NCBI RefSeq assembly: GCF_004364285.1
Contig: NZ_SOBE01000001.1
Location: 310,001-374,000 of the forward strand
Length of the DNA stretch: 64,000 bases
Source: Frigoribacterium sp. PhB116
GTDB lineage: Bacteria; Actinomycetota; Actinomycetes; Actinomycetales; Microbacteriaceae
Direction of reading: 5' to 3'
In this document: positions 1-13,336 of the stretch, one piece after another
Position numbering within the stretch: the first letter of the stretch is position 1
Layout: the number at the start of each line of letters is the position of its first letter
The notes under the pieces: generated by a model
What the model saw: only the letters and a program-made list of their open reading frames with translations
What the model was told of the DNA's origin: nothing
Databases searched by the model: none
Position numbers and translations under genes: made by a program

Positions 1-889
1 CGACCGTGACGGCTCCGGCGTCGTCGTCGGCGACCGCGTCGTCCCCGTCGTCGCTGGCCTCGACGACGTGCCGCGTGCCGTCTGGCGCCTCAGCGCCGAG
101 AGCGTGATCGTCGCCGGCGACGCGGGCCGGGGCCGCGACTGGCTCCGCGACCTCGGCTGGTCCCTCGAGGGCCGTGCCACCGAGCTCGTCCTCGCGTCCC
201 GGCTGACCAACGTCGCGGGCCCCCGCATCCACTTCCGTCCCGTCGAGGGACTTCCCCTGATGCACGTCGAGCTGCCCGAGTTCGACGGGCCGCGCCACGC
301 GATGAAGCGGGTGTCCGACCTCGTCCTGGCCGGGGGCGCCCTCGTGGTGCTCGCGCCGCTCCTCCTGGTCCTCGCCCTCGTCGTCCGGCTCGACAGCGCC
401 GGGCCGGTGCTGTTCCGACAGCGCCGCGTGGGCCGCGACGGCCGCACCTTCGAGATGCTGAAGTTCCGGTCGATGGTCGTCGACGCCGAGCAGCTGCTCG
501 GCTCGCTCGGCACGGCGGACGAGGGCGCGGGCCCGCTGTTCAAGATGCGCCACGACCCCCGTGTGACCCGCGTCGGACGCCTGCTGCGGAAGTGGTCGCT
601 CGACGAGCTGCCCCAGCTCTGGAACATCGTCCGCGGCGACATGAGCGTCGTCGGCCCCCGGCCGCCCCTCCCCCGCGAGGTCGCCGACTACGAGCGACAC
701 GTGCACCGCCGGCTCTACATCAAGCCCGGCCTGACCGGCATGTGGCAGATCAACGGCCGCAGCGACCTCAGCTGGGAGGACAGCGTCCGCCTCGACCTGT
801 ACTACGTCGAGAACTGGTCGCTCACCGCCGACCTCGTGATCATGTGGCGCACGGTCCGCGTGCTCCTCCGTCACGACGGGGCCTACTGA
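1..889 (+). CDS. Polyprenyl glycosylphosphotransferase (5'-truncated by window edge)
   Basis: Initiates polysaccharide repeat-unit synthesis by moving a sugar-1-phosphate onto undecaprenyl phosphate at the inner membrane. The frame is open to the left edge, so the true start lies outside; the GTG at 68 is internal. The visible N-terminal part matches the Rossmann-like cytoplasmic domain of this family. A hydrophobic segment (LAPLLLVLALVV) then leads into the C-terminal bacterial sugar-transferase domain with KFRSM, DELPQLWNI and SVVGPRP motifs, ending in the usual YYVENWSL block. The stop TGA overlaps the next ATG (ATGA), marking the head of a coupled operon. Family is clear; which sugar is transferred cannot be told. 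Confidence 0.9.
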   Translation, partial: DRDGSGVVVGDRVVPVVAGLDDVPRAVWRLSAESVIVAGDAGRGRDWLRDLGWSLEGRATELVLASRLTNVAGPRIHFRPVEGLPLMHVELPEFDGPRHAMKRVSDLVLAGGALVVLAPLLLVLALVVRLDSAGPVLFRQRRVGRDGRTFEMLKFRSMVVDAEQLLGSLGTADEGAGPLFKMRHDPRVTRVGRLLRKWSLDELPQLWNIVRGDMSVVGPRPPLPREVADYERHVHRRLYIKPGLTGMWQINGRSDLSWEDSVRLDLYYVENWSLTADLVIMWRTVRVLLRHDGAY

Positions 890-1494
890 TGCGCCGCCGC
901 ACCCTGCTCCTGTCCGGAGCCGGCGTGGTCGTGCTGGCCGCAGCCGTCGTGGTGGCCGTCGTCGTCACGACCGGGTCGAACGAGGCGACGGCCAGCGGAG
1001 GAGGGATCGACGCCCCTGCGTACGTCACGACCGAGACCGGTGCCCCGGCCGTCGAGCGCGACGGTGCCGCGGCGCCCGACGACCGCGTGCAGGCCGACGT
1101 GGTCCCGTTCGCCGACTCCGTCGACTACCCGGACGGCCTGACCGTCACCACGGAGGCGGTCGACCAGGGCACGGTGACCGCGACCGGCGCCGGCGTGGTC
1201 ACAGGGGCCCCCTACGTGGTCTTCGCCGTCACGGTGCACAACGGCACCGACGCGGACGTCGACCTCACGTCGGTCGTCCCGAGCCTGCGCGCGGGCAGCG
1301 ACGCGGTCCCCTCCGCACCGCTCTACGACGACGTCGACGTGGCCGACCTCGACAGCGTCGTCGCCGCGGGCGCCGACGTCACCGCCCGGTACGCCTTCGT
1401 CGTCCCGGCAGACCGCCGCGACCAGGCCACGCTCTACCTCGACCTGGACGGCGTCCACGCGCCGGCCACCTTCACGGGGAGCCTCCCCCGATGA
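889..1494 (+). CDS. Membrane-anchored or secreted protein of unknown function
   Basis: A 201-aa protein with a basic N-terminus (MRRR), then a long hydrophobic segment (about residues 5-27), so a signal anchor or signal peptide; the rest would be extracytoplasmic. The C-terminal half reads as a small beta-sandwich (VFAVTVHNGTDADVDLTSV), similar to DUF4352-type immunoglobulin-like domains of actinobacterial lipoproteins, but it has no lipobox cysteine. The start is fixed by the ATGA overlap with the sugar transferase and its own stop overlaps the flippase ATG. A role in exopolysaccharide assembly is inferred only from its place in the operon. Confidence 0.75.
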   Translation: MRRRTLLLSGAGVVVLAAAVVVAVVVTTGSNEATASGGGIDAPAYVTTETGAPAVERDGAAAPDDRVQADVVPFADSVDYPDGLTVTTEAVDQGTVTATGAGVVTGAPYVVFAVTVHNGTDADVDLTSVVPSLRAGSDAVPSAPLYDDVDVADLDSVVAAGADVTARYAFVVPADRRDQATLYLDLDGVHAPATFTGSLPR

Positions 1495-2921
1495 CCGTCT
1501 CGACGCACGACGGGGTGCGCCGGGAGGGCGCGGCCCCGGCGGCACGGCCTCGGCCGCGCCGCCGGTCGGACGTGCTCGGCGCGCTGGGCGGCCAGGGCAC
1601 GCAGGCGCTGCTCGGCCTCGCGGGGCAGATCGTCGCGGTGCGCCTGCTCGCGCCGTCGGACTGGGGCGTGTACGCCGTGCTGTACGGCGTCGTCGTCGTC
1701 TTCGCCGCCCTCGCCAGCGGCTTCGTCGGCGACTCGCTGACCGTGCTCGACCGTGGCTCCGCGGACGTCCGCCGCGGGCTCCTGGCCTGGGCTGCCGTCT
1801 GGTGCCTCGCCGCCCCGGCGGTCGCGGGCGTCGTGATCGGCGCCTCCGGCGTGCTCGAGCCGGCCCAGGCCGCCCTCTTCGCCCTCGCCGCAGGTGCCTT
1901 CGCCGCCGAGGAGGTCGCGCGACGCCTCCTGATGGCGCAGCTGCGCTTCTGGCGACTCGTCGTCGTCGACCTCACCGGCCTCGGCGCGCTGCTCGGCACG
2001 GCCGGCCTGCTCGCCGTCGGCGGCACCACGGGACTGCTGCTGCCGCTCGCCGCGCTCGGCGCAGGGCAGTCCGTCGCCCTCGTGACCGCGCTCGCGCTCG
2101 CTGGCCCCCGCCGGGCGGCGACGGCCTCGCCGAGCTGGGCGACCGGCCACAGCGGGGTGCGGATCGTCGCCGCCTACGGGTCGCTCCGCGCAGCCCAGGC
2201 CGTCGTGCGACCGTCCCTGCTGACCGTGACGCGCCTCCTCGTCGTCCTGTTCGTCGGGACGGTCGCGACGGGCGACCTCGAAGCGGCCCGCGTGTTCGTG
2301 GCGCCCGTCCTGCTGCTCGTCGGCGGCCTGTCGACCTACCTGTTCGCGACCTTCGCCGTGGCCCACGCCGTGCCGACCCGGACGCTCGTGCATCGGGCCG
2401 ACCGGGCGGTGCTGCGGCTCCTCGTCGGCGCCCTCGCCGTCGGTGCCGTCGCGGTGCTGCTGGCGCCCGTCGCAGGCGAGCTGGTCGCGGGCCGGCCGCT
2501 CGACACCCTCGCGGTCGCCGGGTGGGCCGCGTACGCGGTGAGCGTCGCGGCCGTCACCCCGTACGGGTCGCTCGCGGCCGTCCGGGGCGGTCAGGCCCGC
2601 GTGCTCGCCGTGCGCGTCGCCGACTCGTTCTTCTCCCTCGCAGCCGCCGTCGCCGTCCTCGGCGTCGGCGCTCCCCCGGCCGCGGTGCCGTTCGCGCTGT
2701 GCGCCGGCAGCGTGCTCGGCGGGCTGCTCGTGCGGCGCGTGGTGACCAGCCTCGGCGACGCGGCCGCCGTGCCGGGCCGCCCCCGTCCCGACGACCTCGA
2801 ACCTCCTCCCCCTACGTCCGACCCCATCGACCGCCCCCTCGCCCTCACGACCCGACCCGCACCCGACCGCGGACGAGCAGACTGCTCGCCCGAGACCCTG
2901 ACCGGAGAGACACGACCATGA
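1491..2921 (+). CDS. Polysaccharide flippase (Wzx/MOP superfamily)
   Basis: A 476-aa polytopic membrane protein with about twelve hydrophobic segments and a Pro/Asp-rich cytoplasmic C-terminal tail. Its hydrophobicity pattern and the N-terminal block (GLAGQIVAVRLLAPSDWG) fit polysaccharide-biosynthesis flippases of the MOP superfamily, which move lipid-linked repeat units across the membrane. Both ends overlap their neighbours by ATGA, so it is translated together with the preceding secreted protein and the following large secreted protein. With the Wzy- and Wzz-like genes downstream it makes a Wzx/Wzy-type pathway likely. Sequence divergence in this family prevents any substrate prediction. 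Confidence 0.85.
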   Translation: MTVSTHDGVRREGAAPAARPRPRRRSDVLGALGGQGTQALLGLAGQIVAVRLLAPSDWGVYAVLYGVVVVFAALASGFVGDSLTVLDRGSADVRRGLLAWAAVWCLAAPAVAGVVIGASGVLEPAQAALFALAAGAFAAEEVARRLLMAQLRFWRLVVVDLTGLGALLGTAGLLAVGGTTGLLLPLAALGAGQSVALVTALALAGPRRAATASPSWATGHSGVRIVAAYGSLRAAQAVVRPSLLTVTRLLVVLFVGTVATGDLEAARVFVAPVLLLVGGLSTYLFATFAVAHAVPTRTLVHRADRAVLRLLVGALAVGAVAVLLAPVAGELVAGRPLDTLAVAGWAAYAVSVAAVTPYGSLAAVRGGQARVLAVRVADSFFSLAAAVAVLGVGAPPAAVPFALCAGSVLGGLLVRRVVTSLGDAAAVPGRPRPDDLEPPPPTSDPIDRPLALTTRPAPDRGRADCSPETLTGETRP

Positions 2922-6967: not shown

Positions 6968-8257
6968 ATGACCCTCGACACCACCAGAACGACCGGCCGG
7001 GGCGCGGGGGCGCCCGGGGCAGCGCCCGCCGACGCGGACGCTGCACCCGGGGCCCGGCGGGCCGAGCAGTGGCTGCTCGACGCGGCCGACCTCCCGGAGG
7101 CGCCCCCGCGCCTCCCGGGCGGTCGTCGCAGCAGGGTCCTCGTCGTGCACTCGTCCGACGAGCTGTACGGCTCGGACCGCATCGTGCTCGAGGTCGTCGG
7201 CGAGCTCGCCGCCCGCGACGACCTCGACGTGACCGTGTGGCTCCCGTCCGACGTGGCCGTGGGCCCGTTGGGGCCGCAGCTCCGTGAGCTCGGCGCCCGC
7301 GTCGAGCGCACGGCGCTGCCGATCCTCCGACGGTCGCACCTCGGCCCGGTCGGCATCGCCCGCCTCGCGCGGGACGCCGCCCGGACCGCGGCGCGGCTCG
7401 CCGGTCGGCACTTCGACCTCGTCTACTGCGCGACGAGCGCCTGCCTCGTCGTCGCCCCCCTCGCGCGCCTGGCCGGCGTGCAGCACGTCGTCGGCCACCT
7501 GCAGGAGCCGTGGGGCGACACGGACCGCAAGGGCCTCCGGCCCCTGGCCCGTGCCTGCACAGCCCTCGTGGCCGTGTCCCGCTCGGTCCTCGGCAGCTCC
7601 GGCCTGGACGGCGACGACCGGGCCGTCGTCGTGCACAACGGCGTCCCGCGGCGGTCGCCCGACCTGGTCGCGGCACCGGAGCACCGCCTCCCCCACTACC
7701 TGATGGCCAGCCGCTGGAACTCCCACAAGGGCCACAGCACCCTGCTGACCGCCTGGAACGCGGCGGGCTGCCCCGGTCAGCTCGTCGTCCTCGGCGGCCC
7801 GCCCGCCGTCGGGGCCGGCGTCGACGTCCCGGCCCTGGTGCAGGCCATCGTGTCCCGGCCCGAGACCGTGACGGTCGTCGGCCAGGTCGAGGACGCCACC
7901 CCCTACGTCCGCGACGCGGACGCGATCGTGCTGCCCACCGACACCCTCGAGGGCTTCGGCCTCGTCGCCCTCGAGGCGTTCAGCGAGGGCCGTCCGGTCG
8001 TCGCCAGCCGCAGCGGGGGCCCGGAGGAGGTCGTCGTCGACGGCGAGACGGGCTGGCTCTTCGACCGTCGCGACGTCGACGCCCTCGCCGACCTGTTCGC
8101 CGGACTCGACGTCGACACCCTCGCCGCCGCGGGCCGTCGTGCCCAGGCGGCCTACCAGGAGCGCTACACGCCCGAGAAGATGCGCCGACGCATCGGTGCG
8201 GTCGTCTCTCGTGAGCTGCACCGCGAGCACGGCCAGGACCTGGCGGTGGCCTCGTGA
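6968..8257 (+). CDS. Glycosyltransferase, GT4 family (GT-B fold)
   Basis: 429 aa, starting 4 nt after the preceding stop. An N-terminal acceptor domain begins with a Rossmann strand (VLVVHSSDELYGSDR). The C-terminal donor-binding domain carries the GT4 signature EGFGLVALEAF near residue 327 followed by GRPVVAS and GGPEEVV. No signal peptide; a cytoplasmic, membrane-associated enzyme extending the lipid-linked repeat unit is expected. It is the only classical glycosyltransferase besides the initiating enzyme in the visible part of the operon, so others probably lie to the left of the window. The stop overlaps the next GTG (GTGA). Sugar specificity is unknown. Confidence 0.88.
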   Translation: MTLDTTRTTGRGAGAPGAAPADADAAPGARRAEQWLLDAADLPEAPPRLPGGRRSRVLVVHSSDELYGSDRIVLEVVGELAARDDLDVTVWLPSDVAVGPLGPQLRELGARVERTALPILRRSHLGPVGIARLARDAARTAARLAGRHFDLVYCATSACLVVAPLARLAGVQHVVGHLQEPWGDTDRKGLRPLARACTALVAVSRSVLGSSGLDGDDRAVVVHNGVPRRSPDLVAAPEHRLPHYLMASRWNSHKGHSTLLTAWNAAGCPGQLVVLGGPPAVGAGVDVPALVQAIVSRPETVTVVGQVEDATPYVRDADAIVLPTDTLEGFGLVALEAFSEGRPVVASRSGGPEEVVVDGETGWLFDRRDVDALADLFAGLDVDTLAAAGRRAQAAYQERYTPEKMRRRIGAVVSRELHREHGQDLAVAS

Positions 8258-9063
8258 CGCGGCTCGAGGGGACGCCGCTGCGTCCCGAGGCGACCACCGC
8301 CTCCTCGGCCCCGTCGCGCACGCCCGTGCCGCACGAGTTCCGTGCAGCACTGGCCGCGCTGGCGTCGGCGCAGAAGTCCTCGAGCGGCGCACCTGCCTAC
8401 TCGCGGTTCGTGAACCGCCGCCTCGGCCGGTGGGCCGCCGCCGCCGCGCACGTGCTGCGGGCGACGCCGAACCAGGTGACGGCGGTCAGCGCCCTCGCCA
8501 CCTTCGCCGGCATCGCCGTCCTGGCCACGGTGCCGGCCGGCTGGCTGCCCGCCGTGCTCGTGCCCCTGCTGCTCGTCGTCGGCTACGCCCTCGACTCGGC
8601 CGACGGGCAGCTCGCCCGTCTCCGCGGCGGCGGCAGCCCGGCCGGCGAGTGGCTCGACCACGTGATCGACGCGACGAAGATCGCGGTGCTGCACCTCGCG
8701 GTCTTCGCGTCGTGGGTCCGCGAACCCGAGGGGCGGGAGGCGGTCCTGGCGCTCCCGCTCGCCTACCAGGTCGTCGCGACGGTCGCCTTCTTCGCGATCG
8801 TCCTCACCGAGCAGCTGCGCCGGGCCGAGTCCGTCGCCGCGGGCTCGCCCGTGCTCGTCCGCCGCCAGACCGGTGCCCTGTACTCGCTGGCGGTCGTCCC
8901 GACCGACTACGGCCTCATGTGCCTCGTCTTCGTCCTGCTCGCCTGGCCCGGCGCGTTCACCGTGGCCTACCTCCTGCTCTTCGCGGCCAACGCCGCCTAC
9001 CTGCTGCTCGCCCTCCCCAAGTGGTTCCGCGAGCTCCGCACCGATCCGATGAGGACCTCATGA
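8254..9063 (+). CDS. CDP-alcohol phosphatidyltransferase family enzyme
   Basis: 269 aa integral membrane enzyme. The CDP-alcohol phosphotransferase signature D-x2-DG-x2-AR-x8-G-x3-D-x3-D is complete: DSADGQLAR from about residue 114, then GEWLDHVID. All metal-binding aspartates are present, so it should be active. These enzymes displace CMP from a CDP-alcohol or CDP-diacylglycerol and attach the phospho-alcohol to an acceptor hydroxyl. Its position inside a Wzx/Wzy operon together with a TagD-like cytidylyltransferase (12178-12690) suggests the pair makes and uses a CDP-polyol, but a phospholipid-type product is equally possible. GTG start overlaps the glycosyltransferase stop; ATGA overlap with the next gene. 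Confidence 0.88.
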   Translation: MTRLEGTPLRPEATTASSAPSRTPVPHEFRAALAALASAQKSSSGAPAYSRFVNRRLGRWAAAAAHVLRATPNQVTAVSALATFAGIAVLATVPAGWLPAVLVPLLLVVGYALDSADGQLARLRGGGSPAGEWLDHVIDATKIAVLHLAVFASWVREPEGREAVLALPLAYQVVATVAFFAIVLTEQLRRAESVAAGSPVLVRRQTGALYSLAVVPTDYGLMCLVFVLLAWPGAFTVAYLLLFAANAAYLLLALPKWFRELRTDPMRTS

Positions 9064-10886
9064 CCAGCACCGCCCGCGCCGTCGTCGTCGACGACCGCCT
9101 CGACCTCGGGGACTACCTCCGCTACGTCGCCCAGCACCTCGTCGTGGTCGTGGTGGCCGTCGTCCTCGGCCTCGCCGCCGGGGTCGGCCTCTCGCAGCTG
9201 GCCCCCGCCTCCTACACGGCCCAGGCCACGGTCTTCGTCCGGGCCGACGCACCCGGCTCGAACCTCGACGAGCGCTCGGCCTTCGCCCTGCGCCAGGTCT
9301 CGTCGTACGCGCAGCTCGGCACGAGCGCCCAGGTGCTCGGGCCGGTCGCCCAGGCCCAGGGCGTCTCGCTCGCCGACCTGGGCGACCGCGTGACCGTGAC
9401 GAACCCCGTCGACACGGTGGTGCTCCTCGTCTCGGCCACCGACGTCACGGCCACCGGCGCGGCCCAGCTCGCGGACACCGTCGCGGGGCGCCTGTCGGAC
9501 ACGGTCGACCAGATCGAGTCCACCGACGGTGCCGACGGGCAGACGATCTCCCTGGACCTGACCGCGCCGGCGCCGGTGCCGACGACGTCGACGGGTCCGA
9601 GCACGGTCGTCCTCGGCCTGCTGGGCCTGCTGGTCGGCCTCGGGATCGGGGTCGCGCTCGCGATCGTCCTCGCCCGGACGCGCCCCCGCGTCAGCACGGT
9701 CGACGACGTCCGTCGCGCGACCGGCCTGCCGGTGGTCGGCCAGCTGCCGGCCGTCGTGCGCAGCTCGGACGACCCCGACGGGCGCGGCGCCTCGGCGGCC
9801 ACCCGCACGGCGCTCCGCGAGACCGTGCAGAACCTCCGCGCCCTGCGCGGCGGCGAGCTGCCCCGCGTGCTGCTGCTCGCCCGCACCGACACGGTGTCGG
9901 AGGCGGCCGGCGTCGACGGCGGCCTCGCACGGGCCGTGGTGGAGCTCGGCTCGACCTGCGCCCTGCTGCAGTCGGACTTCGACACCCGCACCGTGTCGCG
10001 GCCCTCGACGGTCCCCGACGACGCCCTCCCCGAGATGACGGAGGCGGACCTCGCCGGCTACGACCGCGTGCCGGTCCCCGACGTCGTCGGCGCCTCCACC
10101 CGGTCCTTCGTCCGGTCGGGGGTCGAGCGGTTCTTCGCGGACCTGCGCGGCACCTACGACGTGACCGTCGTGCAGTCGGCCTCGGACTCGCACCCCTTCG
10201 CCCTGCGGACCGTGACGGCCGAGTCGGACGAGGTGGTGCTCGTCGTCCGTGCCGGGGCGACCCGCCTGGAGTCGCTCCGCAGCCTGACCGCGGAGCTGAT
10301 GAGCCTCGACGTCGAGCCGATCGGCGTCGTGCTGGCGGGCGTGCCCCGCTGGCGCCGCGTGCTGCTGCGCGCCACCTGGCGCGACGAGGACTTCCGCCGT
10401 GTCGACCGCCCGGGCTCGGGCCACGCGCCGGCCGCCCACGTGCGGTCGTCGGCGCCCGTGTCGTCCGCTCCGGTCGTGCCGTCCGGGACGGCCTCGCCGT
10501 CCGAGGCGTCCGAGGCGTCCGCCTGGTCCCCCTCGCGGGCGGAGGGCTCGACGAGCATCGCCGACCTCGTCCGCGACCCGTTCACGACGCCTGACCCTGC
10601 CGCCGAGGCGCCGGTCGCCGAGACGGTCGTGGCTCCCGCCGCACCCGCGGACGAGTCCACTGTGCCTGCCGAGGCCGAGGCCGAGGCCGAAGCAGAGGCC
10701 GCGACCGACGAGACGACGACGCCCGCCGCGGCGCCGACCTCGAAGTCCGGGCGCAAGCCCCGTGGCAAGGGCCGGATCGTCCCTCGCCGTCCTGCGGGAC
10801 CGGCCCGTGGACCGGACGACGCCGTGGACGGCGACGGCGACTCCGCCGCCGGCGGCTCCGACGCGCGTCCGTCCGACGGCGAGTGA
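9060..10886 (+). CDS. Wzz-type chain-length protein with degenerate BY-kinase domain
   Basis: 608 aa. Two membrane segments (about residues 27-47 and 180-205) flank an extracytoplasmic Wzz loop, as in capsule co-polymerases. The cytoplasmic part (about 260-440) aligns with bacterial tyrosine-kinase domains but has lost key residues. The Walker A position reads ARTDTVSEAAGVDGG with no GKS/T. Walker A' survives partly as LLQSDFDTR. The Walker B aspartate is replaced (VTVVQSASDS), while the following VVLVVRAG strand is kept. The tail lacks a tyrosine cluster and instead has an EAEAEAEAEA run and a Lys/Arg-rich end (KSGRKPRGKGR). It therefore probably regulates polymer length without kinase activity. 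ATGA overlap with the upstream gene, GTGA overlap with the polymerase. Confidence 0.83.
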   Translation: MTSTARAVVVDDRLDLGDYLRYVAQHLVVVVVAVVLGLAAGVGLSQLAPASYTAQATVFVRADAPGSNLDERSAFALRQVSSYAQLGTSAQVLGPVAQAQGVSLADLGDRVTVTNPVDTVVLLVSATDVTATGAAQLADTVAGRLSDTVDQIESTDGADGQTISLDLTAPAPVPTTSTGPSTVVLGLLGLLVGLGIGVALAIVLARTRPRVSTVDDVRRATGLPVVGQLPAVVRSSDDPDGRGASAATRTALRETVQNLRALRGGELPRVLLLARTDTVSEAAGVDGGLARAVVELGSTCALLQSDFDTRTVSRPSTVPDDALPEMTEADLAGYDRVPVPDVVGASTRSFVRSGVERFFADLRGTYDVTVVQSASDSHPFALRTVTAESDEVVLVVRAGATRLESLRSLTAELMSLDVEPIGVVLAGVPRWRRVLLRATWRDEDFRRVDRPGSGHAPAAHVRSSAPVSSAPVVPSGTASPSEASEASAWSPSRAEGSTSIADLVRDPFTTPDPAAEAPVAETVVAPAAPADESTVPAEAEAEAEAEAATDETTTPAAAPTSKSGRKPRGKGRIVPRRPAGPARGPDDAVDGDGDSAAGGSDARPSDGE

Positions 10887-12181
10887 CCGTGTCCTCCCCC
10901 GTGCGGACCGCCTCCGGCCCCGTCGTCGTGCCCGCGGCCTCGCCGCGCACGACGCCGTGGCGAGGCGCGACCGCGCTGCACGACGACCTGCCGGCCGCGC
11001 GCCATCTGGTCCGTCCGGCGGTCGTCATGACGGTGCTCGTGGCGTCCGTGGTCCCCTGGCGCACGGGTGTCATCTACGAGGGCGGCCTCGACCCGGTCGT
11101 CGCCGCCAAGGCGTTCCTCGCCGCGGTGGCGCTGGTGCTCGCCCTCACGGGCGCGCCCGCCGGTCGCGACGGCCGACACCTCGCGAACCGCGTGGGCCCC
11201 GTCGCCGTGGCGTTCCTGCTCGCCTACCTCGGGATCGCCTTCGTCGGGGGCGTCTCGGCCGGGCTGACGACGTCGACGACCGTGCTCGTGGTCCGCGTGC
11301 TGATGGTCGCGGCGACGATCGTCGCCGTCGTCCACCGCAGCGAGCCGCGCGTCGTCGTGCGGTCGCTGCTGCTGGCCCTCGGCATCGTCGGGGCCGTCTC
11401 GGCGCTCTCGGGCCTGCAGATCTACCTGGCCGGGGGGCGCCTCGCCGGGACCCTGCCGGCCCTGAGCCCGAACGAGATCGCGCTGCTGCTCGGCCTGCCG
11501 CTGATCGGCGTGGTCCACCGCCTCCTGGTCCAGGAGGCGACCGTCGGGTCGCTCGCACTGCTGGTCGTCCTGACCGGCCTCTTCGTCACGACGGGCTCGC
11601 GGGCCGCGTTCCTCGCGGTCCTCGTGGCCGTGGCCGTGGCCGTCGTCGCGGCTCGCCGTGTCCGCCCCACGGTCGCGGTCGTCGTCGCGGTCGCCGTGCC
11701 CCTCGCCGTCGCGCTGCTCGCGAGCACCGACGTCCTCGCCCGGGTGATCGAGCGCGGGGGCGACTCCGCGAGCATCGCGACCCTCAACTCGCGCACCATC
11801 GCCTGGAACACGGTGCTGCAGACCGACCCGGGCACCTGGGCCCGCTGGATCGGCTCCGGCCTCACCGTCAAGCAGGTCCCGGTCGCCGGTCAGTACTGGG
11901 CCGAGCAGGTCCTCGACAGCAGCTGGATCTCGGCGCTCGCGCAGGCCGGCGTCGTCGGTGCGGGGCTGCTCGCGATCTGGGTCGTCGTCGGCCTCGCCAC
12001 GGCCGGCCGCGCCAGCCTCCGCGTCGTCGGGTTCGGCGCCGTGTTGCCCGCCTTCGTCTTCATCGTCATCAGGAGCGTCGTCGAGAGCGGGCTGGTCGAC
12101 TCCAGCAGCGCCTTCGTGGCCTTCTTCACCCTGGTCGTGCTCGCCGAGTCGGCCCCTCGTCCCCGGAGCGTGACCCCGTGA
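10883..12181 (+). CDS. O-antigen ligase/polymerase family membrane protein (Wzy-like)
   Basis: 432 aa with about ten hydrophobic segments and a larger extracytoplasmic loop late in the chain (about residues 290-345), containing NSRTIAWNTVL and the SGLTVKQVP stretch, as in Wzy polymerases and O-antigen ligases. It would polymerise repeat units on the outer face of the membrane. GTG at 10883 overlaps the Wzz stop; a second GTG two codons later is an alternative. The stop overlaps the GTG of the cytidylyltransferase. Polymerase and ligase cannot be separated by sequence; with Wzx and Wzz genes beside it, polymerase is favoured. Confidence 0.82.
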   Translation: MTVSSPVRTASGPVVVPAASPRTTPWRGATALHDDLPAARHLVRPAVVMTVLVASVVPWRTGVIYEGGLDPVVAAKAFLAAVALVLALTGAPAGRDGRHLANRVGPVAVAFLLAYLGIAFVGGVSAGLTTSTTVLVVRVLMVAATIVAVVHRSEPRVVVRSLLLALGIVGAVSALSGLQIYLAGGRLAGTLPALSPNEIALLLGLPLIGVVHRLLVQEATVGSLALLVVLTGLFVTTGSRAAFLAVLVAVAVAVVAARRVRPTVAVVVAVAVPLAVALLASTDVLARVIERGGDSASIATLNSRTIAWNTVLQTDPGTWARWIGSGLTVKQVPVAGQYWAEQVLDSSWISALAQAGVVGAGLLAIWVVVGLATAGRASLRVVGFGAVLPAFVFIVIRSVVESGLVDSSSAFVAFFTLVVLAESAPRPRSVTP

Positions 12182-12690
12182 CCTCGTCCACCGACCTGCT
12201 CGATCCCCTGACCACCCGCCCCGGAGGCGCCGGTCGGGTCGGCTACGCCGCCGGCGCCTTCGACCTGTTCCACATCGGGCACCTCAACCTGCTGCGGCAC
12301 GCGCGCCAGCACTGCGACCACCTGATCGCCGGGGTCGTGTCCGACGAGATGCTCGCCCTGACGAAGGGCATCACGCCCGTCGTGCCCCTGGCGGAGCGGC
12401 TCGAGATCGTCGACCACATCGACGTGGTCGACACGGCCTACGCCGAGACGGTGCCCGACAAGCTCGACGTCTGGCGCGAGCTGCGGTTCGACGTCTTCTT
12501 CAAGGGCGACGACTGGCGCGGCACCGAGAAGGGCCTCCGGCTCGAGCGCGAGTTCGCCGAGGTCGGGGTCGAGGTCGTGTACTTCCCGTACACGATGAGC
12601 ACGTCCAGCACCGTGCTGCGCCGTGCGCTGCGGGCCCTGTCCGGCGGAGCGCCGGCACCGGAGGCGGCGACCGCCGAGCGGGCCCGCTGA
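12178..12690 (+). CDS. TagD-like cytidylyltransferase (glycerol-3-phosphate cytidylyltransferase family)
   Basis: 170 aa, the usual size of this nucleotidyltransferase family. The HxGH signature (FHIGH) lies near residue 32 after GYAAGAFD, and the C-terminal nucleotide motif appears as STSSTVLR, equivalent to the ISTT element of TagD. The FFKGDDWRG block is also typical. The expected reaction is CTP plus an alcohol phosphate giving CDP-alcohol and diphosphate; glycerol-3-phosphate is the best-known substrate but is not proven here. GTG start overlaps the polymerase stop. It is the last gene of the operon and the logical supplier of substrate for the CDP-alcohol phosphotransferase four genes upstream. 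Confidence 0.85.
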   Translation: MTSSTDLLDPLTTRPGGAGRVGYAAGAFDLFHIGHLNLLRHARQHCDHLIAGVVSDEMLALTKGITPVVPLAERLEIVDHIDVVDTAYAETVPDKLDVWRELRFDVFFKGDDWRGTEKGLRLEREFAEVGVEVVYFPYTMSTSSTVLRRALRALSGGAPAPEAATAERAR

Positions 12691-12820: not shown

Positions 12821-13336
12821 ATGACCGTCACCCCTGCCTCCCCGTCCTCGCCCGCCGCCGACCCGCACCGGCCCGTCGTCACCGACGACGAGCTGCTCGC
12901 CCGGGTCGAGAGCCTGGTGCCGGTCGCCGTGCGTCGGCAGCTCTGGACGCTGTTCCTCGACGCCGACCAGGTCCAGCTGCCCATGGTGGTGCCTCTCGAG
13001 GGCATCCCCGAGCGTCCGGACCGTCTCGCGGTCGAGCGCTGGGGCGACGCCCTGGACGAGGTCGCGAGCGAGTTCGGGGTCTCCGCCGTCGTCTTCGTGC
13101 TCGAGCGTCCCGGGCCTGCGGTCGACTCGGCGTCCGACGTGGCGTGGCGAGACGCGCTCAGCGGTCTCTCCGAGGCTCGCCGCTACGCCGTCCGGGCGGT
13201 CCTCACCTGCACGTCCGACGGCGTCGTGGCTCCCGCCGACACCCGCTCGGTGACGGCGACCGACCGCGACAGGTGCCCACGCCCTCAGTCCTCGCCGAGC
13301 CGCCTGCGGTTCTCCGAGGTGCTCGCCGTGCGCTGA
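12821..13336 (+). CDS. Hypothetical protein
   Basis: 171 aa, soluble, rich in Ala/Val/Asp, no membrane segment and no motif I recognise. Predicted alternating helices and strands (LPMVVPLEGIPERP, SAVVFVLERPG) suggest a small alpha/beta fold. The ATG is preceded by a weak GGAGA 14 nt upstream; the 130 nt before it separate it from the polysaccharide operon. Its 3' end overlaps the 3' end of the convergent small gene at 13285-13539 by 52 nt. The coding call rests on codon composition and the good N-terminus; function unknown. Confidence 0.6.
   Translation: MTVTPASPSSPAADPHRPVVTDDELLARVESLVPVAVRRQLWTLFLDADQVQLPMVVPLEGIPERPDRLAVERWGDALDEVASEFGVSAVVFVLERPGPAVDSASDVAWRDALSGLSEARRYAVRAVLTCTSDGVVAPADTRSVTATDRDRCPRPQSSPSRLRFSEVLAVR

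Follow-up and report, generated by a model that had tools for sequence, protein, structure and literature searches.

Several systems are known in which an alcohol phosphate is activated as a CDP-alcohol and then transferred to an acceptor. In the eukaryotic Kennedy pathway, the HxGH cytidylyltransferases ECT and CCT make CDP-alcohols for CEPT1 and CHPT1, CDP-alcohol phosphotransferases (CDP-APs) that carry the motif G-E-x-x-D-H-x-x-D and use diacylglycerol as the acceptor. The pneumococcal type of glycerol-phosphate capsule branch is encoded by gct together with a LicD/WchX-like transferase gene in a Wzx/Wzy locus. Wall teichoic acid synthesis employs TagD with TagB/TagF, and archaea have the CDP-APs AF2299 and DIPPS, the latter fused to the cytidylyltransferase IPCT, which is not an HxGH enzyme. 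Here a further pair is described from Frigoribacterium sp. PhB116 (GCF_004364285.1; genome of 3.37 Mb), in a stretch of 64,000 nucleotides (contig NZ_SOBE01000001.1, 310001-374000; hereafter the window) where a CDP-AP and an HxGH cytidylyltransferase (CT) are encoded in one polysaccharide operon. Judged from the genes present, their co-occurrence, their motifs and predicted folds, and the LicD-like gene that adjoins the CT in four genomes lacking the CDP-AP, the pair probably forms a dedicated alcohol-phosphate step, in which the CT would make a CDP-alcohol and the CDP-AP would put the alcohol phosphate on the lipid-linked repeat unit, at one of its hydroxyls, before export.

Like the Kennedy pathway, the bacterial pair combines an HxGH cytidylyltransferase with a CDP-AP having G-E-x-x-D-H-x-x-D. 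Unlike it, the pair sits in polysaccharide operons, its acceptor is probably a glycan instead of diacylglycerol, and the six-helix core of the CDP-AP is contained in 269 residues, whereas the solved CHPT1/CEPT1 chains have 380-406. As in the pneumococcal type of branch, a CDP-alcohol maker is encoded with an alcohol-phosphate transferase, and relatives of the CT adjoin a LicD-like gene in four genomes; the transferase of the window, however, is an unrelated integral-membrane CDP-AP. The CT resembles TagD and shares GDDW with the B. subtilis enzyme, but it stays below the cut-off of the TagD model TIGR01518 (60.7 vs 165.4 bits). PF04464 (glycerophosphotransferase-like) had no match among the scanned proteins of the operon and matched one gene elsewhere in the genome. 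DIPPS and AF2299 are also CDP-APs and are the nearest solved folds, although AF2299 (GAWLDGVLD) is without the Glu-His dyad of the window's enzyme. The chemistry of CDP-alcohol activation and transfer is already known, and the new part is probably the Wzx/Wzy-type glycan locus together with a CDP-AP clade that has a eukaryote-like dyad. The original prediction knew no pathway with this set of genes, and no description of a CT/CDP-AP pair in polysaccharide assembly was found in the titles and abstract openings of the best 1-20 of up to 1,652 literature matches, most subscription papers being outside the scope. In the portion of PMC12419801 that was covered, CDP-alcohol phosphatidyltransferases are mentioned once, for archaeal lipids.

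Co-occurrence of the two genes

Among 199 Microbacteriaceae genomes scanned with family profiles at E <=1e-20, each of which matched 69 genomes, 67 had both genes, 2 the CDP-AP only, 2 the CT only (G131 and G144) and 128 neither. A class-wide sample of 296 genomes, partly overlapping the first, gave 37 with both, none with the CDP-AP only, 6 with the CT only and 253 with neither. The class threshold for the CT (at least 170 bits) was chosen after the scores had been viewed, because they split into two groups, >=173 or <=103; at the plain threshold 62 genomes match, and the upper group accounts for 43. Fisher tests gave 5.5e-48 for Microbacteriaceae and 3.2e-41 for the class, values that overstate the co-occurrence because genomes are not independent. 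Matched presence and absence within single genera is sounder support for the pairing: one of the five genomes sampled from the genus Frigoribacterium (G010) lacks both genes, and the other four (G000, G003, G012, and G015) have both.

Of the 67 genomes, 14 have the two genes below 2 kb apart, 22 at 2-10 kb and 24 at 10-30 kb; 3 have them further apart and 4 on separate contigs. Two genomes still possess both genes although about 2 Mb of the same contig separates them. The arrangement is not due to chance, since the pair recurs across the class. A lack of co-occurrence in relatives, which would have refuted the original prediction, was not seen; co-occurrence was near-perfect in the two samples, even when the genes lay far apart. 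In a mirror-tree comparison, the distances of the CDP-AP and the CT correlated with r=0.70 (n=45), a result not specific to the pair because the CDP-AP tracks the sugar-phosphate transferase (0.81, n=42), Wzz (0.87, n=36) and the LamG protein (0.76, n=40) more strongly than the CT; the value for the family 4 glycosyltransferase (GT4) was 0.66 (n=53).

The CDP-alcohol phosphotransferase

Pfam scores and motifs (Table 1) confirm that intact CDP-AP and HxGH motifs lie in one chain of genes with Wzz and Wzy types between them, as had been read from the sequence. The CDP-AP motif, DSADGQLAR...GEWLDHVID, conforms to the superfamily signature of PF01066, D1xxD2G1xxAR...G2xxxD3xxxD4. F. faeni AS3.2 has a CDP-AP with 95% identity over the best segment, and those of other Frigoribacterium and of Frondihabitans are 72-81% identical. 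Within the genus the gene is patchy, being present at >=75% identity in 11 of 16 genomes. Glu132 and His136, the dyad of G-E-x-x-D-H-x-x-D, were present in all 52 aligned members and in all 82 family members; at the AR step of the signature, Ser replaces Ala in two of the 82. The dyad was absent from the three other CDP-AP copies of the PhB116 genome and from all 66 other actinobacterial CDP-APs readable by the motif pattern. These controls came from 70 stretches with other actinobacterial PF01066 genes (30 best-scoring and 40 picked lower, at 48.6-82.8 bits), four of which the pattern did not match.

PMC10182977 describes the Glu-His dyad as missing from most bacterial CDP-APs, reports that its mutation nearly abolishes cholinephosphotransferase activity, and proposes both this extended signature and a role of the dyad in serving a hydroxyl acceptor. 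To judge from these residues, the enzyme of the window would take its substrate from a CDP-alcohol and act on a hydroxyl.

The family fell into a single clade with support 1.0 when 28 of its members were placed in a tree with 69 controls. The NCBIfam equivalog models for archaetidylinositol-phosphate and phosphatidylinositol-phosphate (PIP) synthases gave 46.3 bits (cut-off 180) and 31 bits (cut-off 170), and none of the PgsA models of NCBIfam reached E 0.001. The clade is a separate kind, neither PgsA nor PIP synthase. The nearest relatives of the CDP-AP profile in the PDB were AF2299 (41 bits), the cholinephosphotransferase 8ul9 (34), Xenopus CHPT1 (31) and M. kansasii PIPS (30). An AlphaFold model (pLDDT 89.9, pTM 0.84), from which the six helices of the membrane core were read, was compared with solved structures, and a Foldseek search was also run. 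The best matches were AF2299, DIPPS and PIPS (Z 14.5-18.4, root-mean-square deviation (rmsd) 2.8-7.7 over 180-230 residues), followed by CHPT1/CEPT1 (Z 11.1-13.8, rmsd 3.1-3.4, about 200 aligned). The model stops after the last core helix and has no counterpart of TM7-9, the extra helices that form the dimerization domain of CHPT1/CEPT1 according to PMC10156783.

A second, unrelated CDP-AP with the signature end GVFLDKVGH occurs in the same genome (G000:C2:781000-800999; L011:8904-16917), and its neighbors include an NTP_transf_3 gene, a glycerophosphotransferase-like gene of PF04464 and genes that resemble, by eye, a family 2 glycosyltransferase and an ABC transporter pair. This region is possibly a separate teichoic-acid-like locus.

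The cytidylyltransferase and its candidate alcohol

The CT has the HxGH and GDDW motifs and the fold of TagD. By profile it is nearest to ethanolamine-phosphate cytidylyltransferase (ECT; 115 bits over two domains, the better one 70), followed by TagD (69 bits), the Fom1 cytidylyltransferase (CyTase; 65) and the Thermoplasma protein 3glv (62), and its fold neighbors are the same set (model pLDDT 81.6). The model superposed on 1coz with Z 16.1 and rmsd 3.2 over 123 aligned residues, and on 2b7l with Z 16.7 and rmsd 1.7 over 113. The HldE domain II model TIGR02199 gave 67 bits against a cut-off of 181.5. In three loci the CDP-AP gene lies between two CT genes (L044:9546-11258, L071:9549-11133, L078:9534-11127), and the first CT of these triplets has HxGH and no GDDW.

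Glycerol, from sn-glycerol-3-phosphate, is tentatively named as the most likely alcohol, at slightly less than even confidence. The GDDW motif is that of B. subtilis TagD, and glycerol-3-phosphate is ubiquitous. Neighbors were compared in 82 loci read around CDP-AP genes (the window, the best 80 of 241 relatives, leaning to close ones, and one Actinomyces oris plasmid record), with genes called by a script written for the analysis, which may miss some short ones, and with cluster names resting on Pfam scans of representatives. No gene for making an alcohol phosphate was recognized among the clusters present in at least five loci, by eye and with Pfam scans of some representatives. Five of the 82 loci, from the two lineages Arthrobacter (L039, L046, and L048) and Austwickia (L055 and L066), contain a GDPD-family gene. 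The L039 protein matches PF03009 with 87.8 bits and that of L066 matches NCBIfam glycerophosphodiesterase models below their cut-offs, the other three being assigned by membership of the same cluster. A long extra C-terminal part was seen in the proteins of L039, L048 and L055, and the last of these starts with a twin-arginine-like signal (by eye). For inositol, a PF07994 search of the PhB116 genome gave no match and also missed its control, C. glutamicum, which presumably carries such a gene.

CT-only genomes and a possible LicD-like partner

Seven genomes with the CT only, from both samples, were examined. In four of the six from the class sample (G248, G341, G315, and G288; loci L179-L182), the CT gene is directly followed by a gene for a protein of 519-542 residues that scores 25.4-28.1 bits on LicD (Pfam cut-off 22.6); it is named only LicD-like because the matched part is about 30 of the 227 profile positions. 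LicD proteins are CDP-alcohol-dependent phosphotransferases, so this CT may also have a transferase of another type as its neighbor. A methyltransferase domain scored over its cut-off in the LicD-like proteins of L179 and L181 and below it in L180, and was not found in L182. The two genes are in a row with a small third one (L179:2841-5088, L180:7891-10183, L181:7969-10210, L182:8150-10496), the product of which is a DUF6752 protein in L179. In the stretch read of the remaining three genomes, G144 still shows a sugar-phosphate transferase, the small protein and LamG proteins, G131 a sugar-phosphate transferase and Wzy_C, and G466 none of these four.

Proposed pathway and alternative explanations

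In the proposed pathway, the CT would convert CTP and a small alcohol phosphate to CDP-alcohol, which the integral-membrane CDP-AP would bind at the cytoplasmic face. Glu132 and His136 would activate a hydroxyl, and the alcohol phosphate would pass, ahead of export, to a sugar of the polyprenyl-linked oligosaccharide. The modified oligosaccharide would then be flipped and polymerized by the neighboring Wzx-, Wzy- and Wzz-type proteins. The enzyme activities, the direction of transfer and the glycan acceptor are all inferred. The dedicated alcohol-phosphate step of the original prediction is supported by the co-occurrence and by a CDP-AP distinct from PgsA and PIP synthase; between the two alternatives that it named, the evidence favors a glycan that is substituted or linked over a special lipid anchor, a lipid acceptor being the less likely one. 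Confidence falls just short of even for a broader claim, namely that a Kennedy-like pair acting on lipid-linked sugars belongs to a surface-glycan system widespread in actinobacteria, that an alcohol-phosphate (teichoic-acid-like) polymer is exported by Wzx/Wzy, that in a different lineage the CT has a LicD-like transferase as its interchangeable partner, and that large proteins of the LamG and beta-helix types accompany the system.

Such a pair makes one way of producing phosphorylated glycans in actinobacteria open to test. If the assignment is true, polysaccharide assembly is added to the lipid and inositol-phosphate reactions for which CDP-alcohol phosphotransferases are known. The Glu-His dyad has been attributed to eukaryotic enzymes and is known from those that make lecithin in animals; here it marks a bacterial clade for studying the choice of acceptor, and the pairings of the CT with LicD-like proteins and with CDP-APs may serve as a natural experiment on non-orthologous replacement.

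Several observations weigh against a dedicated step on the glycan. The CDP-AP occurs without the CT in G126 and G201, drafts with more than 100 contigs, and the CT lay inside the fetched stretch (usually 10 kb each side) in 53 of the 82 loci and was not found there in 29. Its substrate is not fixed by sequence, because it falls below every curated single-function cut-off, and the Fom1 CyTase, a phosphonate enzyme, is as close to it as TagD. The modeled overall fold of the CDP-AP is nearer to AF2299, DIPPS and PIPS than to CHPT1/CEPT1. Low-scoring CDP-APs were barely sampled in the dyad control, because the controls score at least 48 bits on PF01066 and the window's family about 31-35, a range in which the sole control is a 33-bit copy from the same genome. 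The short LicD match weighs on the same side, as do G131, G144 and G466, where no CDP-AP or LicD-like partner of the CT was recognized within the stretch read. The GDPD-family gene in the five loci could be coincidental.

The alternative that survives best, though it is unlikely, is a Kennedy-type lipid branch, in which the pair would make the headgroup of a phospholipid or glycolipid from CDP-X and diacylglycerol or a glycolipid, and the product would anchor the polysaccharide or donate X-phosphate outside the cell. The dyad is that of the diacylglycerol-acceptor enzymes, with an entry slit that PMC10182977 places between helices 5 and 6. However, at least one other recurrent glycan-assembly gene accompanies the CDP-AP in 80 of the 82 loci (the exceptions being L044 and L048), and its patchiness within the genus is unlike that of a housekeeping lipid enzyme. 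It is quite improbable that the CDP-AP moves X-phosphate to undecaprenyl phosphate, giving undecaprenyl-diphosphate-X as the primer of a second polymer or a linkage unit. CDP-APs work at the membrane, and the sugar-phosphate transferase cluster was not seen in the stretch read in 32 of the 82 loci, but an initiating transferase is present in the operon and in the other 50, and the dyad suggests a hydroxyl and not a phosphate acceptor (PMC10182977). Activation of a phosphonate by the CT, as in Fom1, with phosphonylation of the glycan, is very improbable. The Fom1 CyTase is among the top neighbors of the CT in sequence and fold, and the PhB116 genome has two PEP_mutase-family genes; both are on other contigs, however, these matches are uninformative because the family also matches 11 of 14 controls, E. 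coli included, and no PEP mutase was recognized among the recurrent clusters (by eye, some representatives being Pfam-scanned). The least probable alternative, an ordinary phospholipid enzyme (PgsA, PIPS or CLS type) placed here by chance, has on its side Pfam membership and the weak NCBIfam likeness to archaetidylinositol-phosphate and PIP synthases, and is rejected by the curated cut-offs, the tree and the different active-site residues, to which the near-perfect tie with the CT is added.

Gene order and neighborhood

The operon of the window consists of nine tightly spaced genes on the + strand (Table 1), from the polyprenyl sugar-phosphate transferase, which begins upstream of the window (its upstream part was read in L010), to the CT. 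Junctions in the whole run are overlaps of 1-4 bases, apart from one 3-base gap. With regard to Wzx/Wzy assembly, the initiating transferase and Wzz both score over their Pfam cut-offs. A member of the Wzy_C-type cluster in L058 reaches 42.9 bits, over the cut-off of 31.7, and a close relative of the probable flippase in L027 matches PF13440 with E=0.026 only. The LamG/PKD protein has a signal-like start (by eye), a weak beta-propeller match, two LamG stretches and PKD (Pfam).

Table 1. Features of the operon and related genes (positions in the window unless a locus is named).
Feature	Position	Strand	Basis
Polyprenyl-phosphate sugar-phosphate transferase (initiating enzyme)	1..889	+	PF02397 235 bits; TIGR03025 339 bits, cut-off 295.55
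Small protein, N-terminal hydrophobic stretch (by eye)	889..1494	+	No Pfam family; family in 36/82 loci
Hydrophobic protein, probable Wzx flippase (weak assignment)	1491..2921	+	Operon position; no Pfam match
LamG/PKD protein, 1348 residues	2918..6964	+	Pfam; family in 55/82 loci
GT4 glycosyltransferase	6968..8257	+	PF13692 79 bits, PF00534 72 bits
CDP-alcohol phosphotransferase (CDP-AP), 269 residues	8254..9063	+	PF01066 31.4 bits, cut-off 22
Extended CDP-AP signature D114..D117-G118..A121-R122..G131-E132..D135-H136..D139	8593..8670	+	Sequence
Wzz-type chain-length protein	9060..10886	+	PF02706 29.6 bits, cut-off 25.5
Wzy_C / O-antigen ligase-type polymerase or ligase	10883..12181	+	PF04932 26.2 bits, below cut-off 31.7
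HxGH cytidylyltransferase (CT), 170 residues, TagD/ECT/Fom1-CyTase/HldE-II superfamily	12178..12690	+	PF01467 58.4 bits, cut-off 21
HIGH (HxGH) catalytic motif, CT H32-H35	12271..12282	+	Sequence
GDDW motif of CT, common to B. subtilis TagD and Fom1 cytidylyltransferase	12505..12516	+	Sequence
GDPD-family genes	L039:17512-18819, L046:13617-14645, L048:17640-18956, L055:14685-16220, L066:15200-16765	not given	Pfam (L039), NCBIfam (L066), cluster (others)

Besides the sugar-phosphate transferase, the small protein and the LamG protein, the neighbors recurring in the 82 loci were GT4 (59), a DUF1972 glycosyltransferase (54), Wzz (38) and two types of beta-helix protein (31 and 14). Flippases formed a Wzx cluster (25 loci) and an unrelated one (11), and Wzy two clusters (15 and 10). 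LamG/PKD or right-handed beta-helix proteins were seen in 69 of the 82 loci and are perhaps binding or processing partners of the glycan. A Gfo/Idh oxidoreductase and a protein of about 300 residues with no Pfam match recurred as a pair in seven of the 82 loci and, by eye, in one CT-only locus (L049:10759-12764, L084:6055-8148, L087:2672-4668, L104:7891-9998, L185:11801-13800; also L096, L100, and L102), and these two may make a sugar. Directly downstream of the CT, the window encodes a 171-residue protein without a Pfam match (12821-13336), which was labeled in ten loci, seven of them annotated as Frigoribacterium and two as Frondihabitans, the tenth being the window itself.

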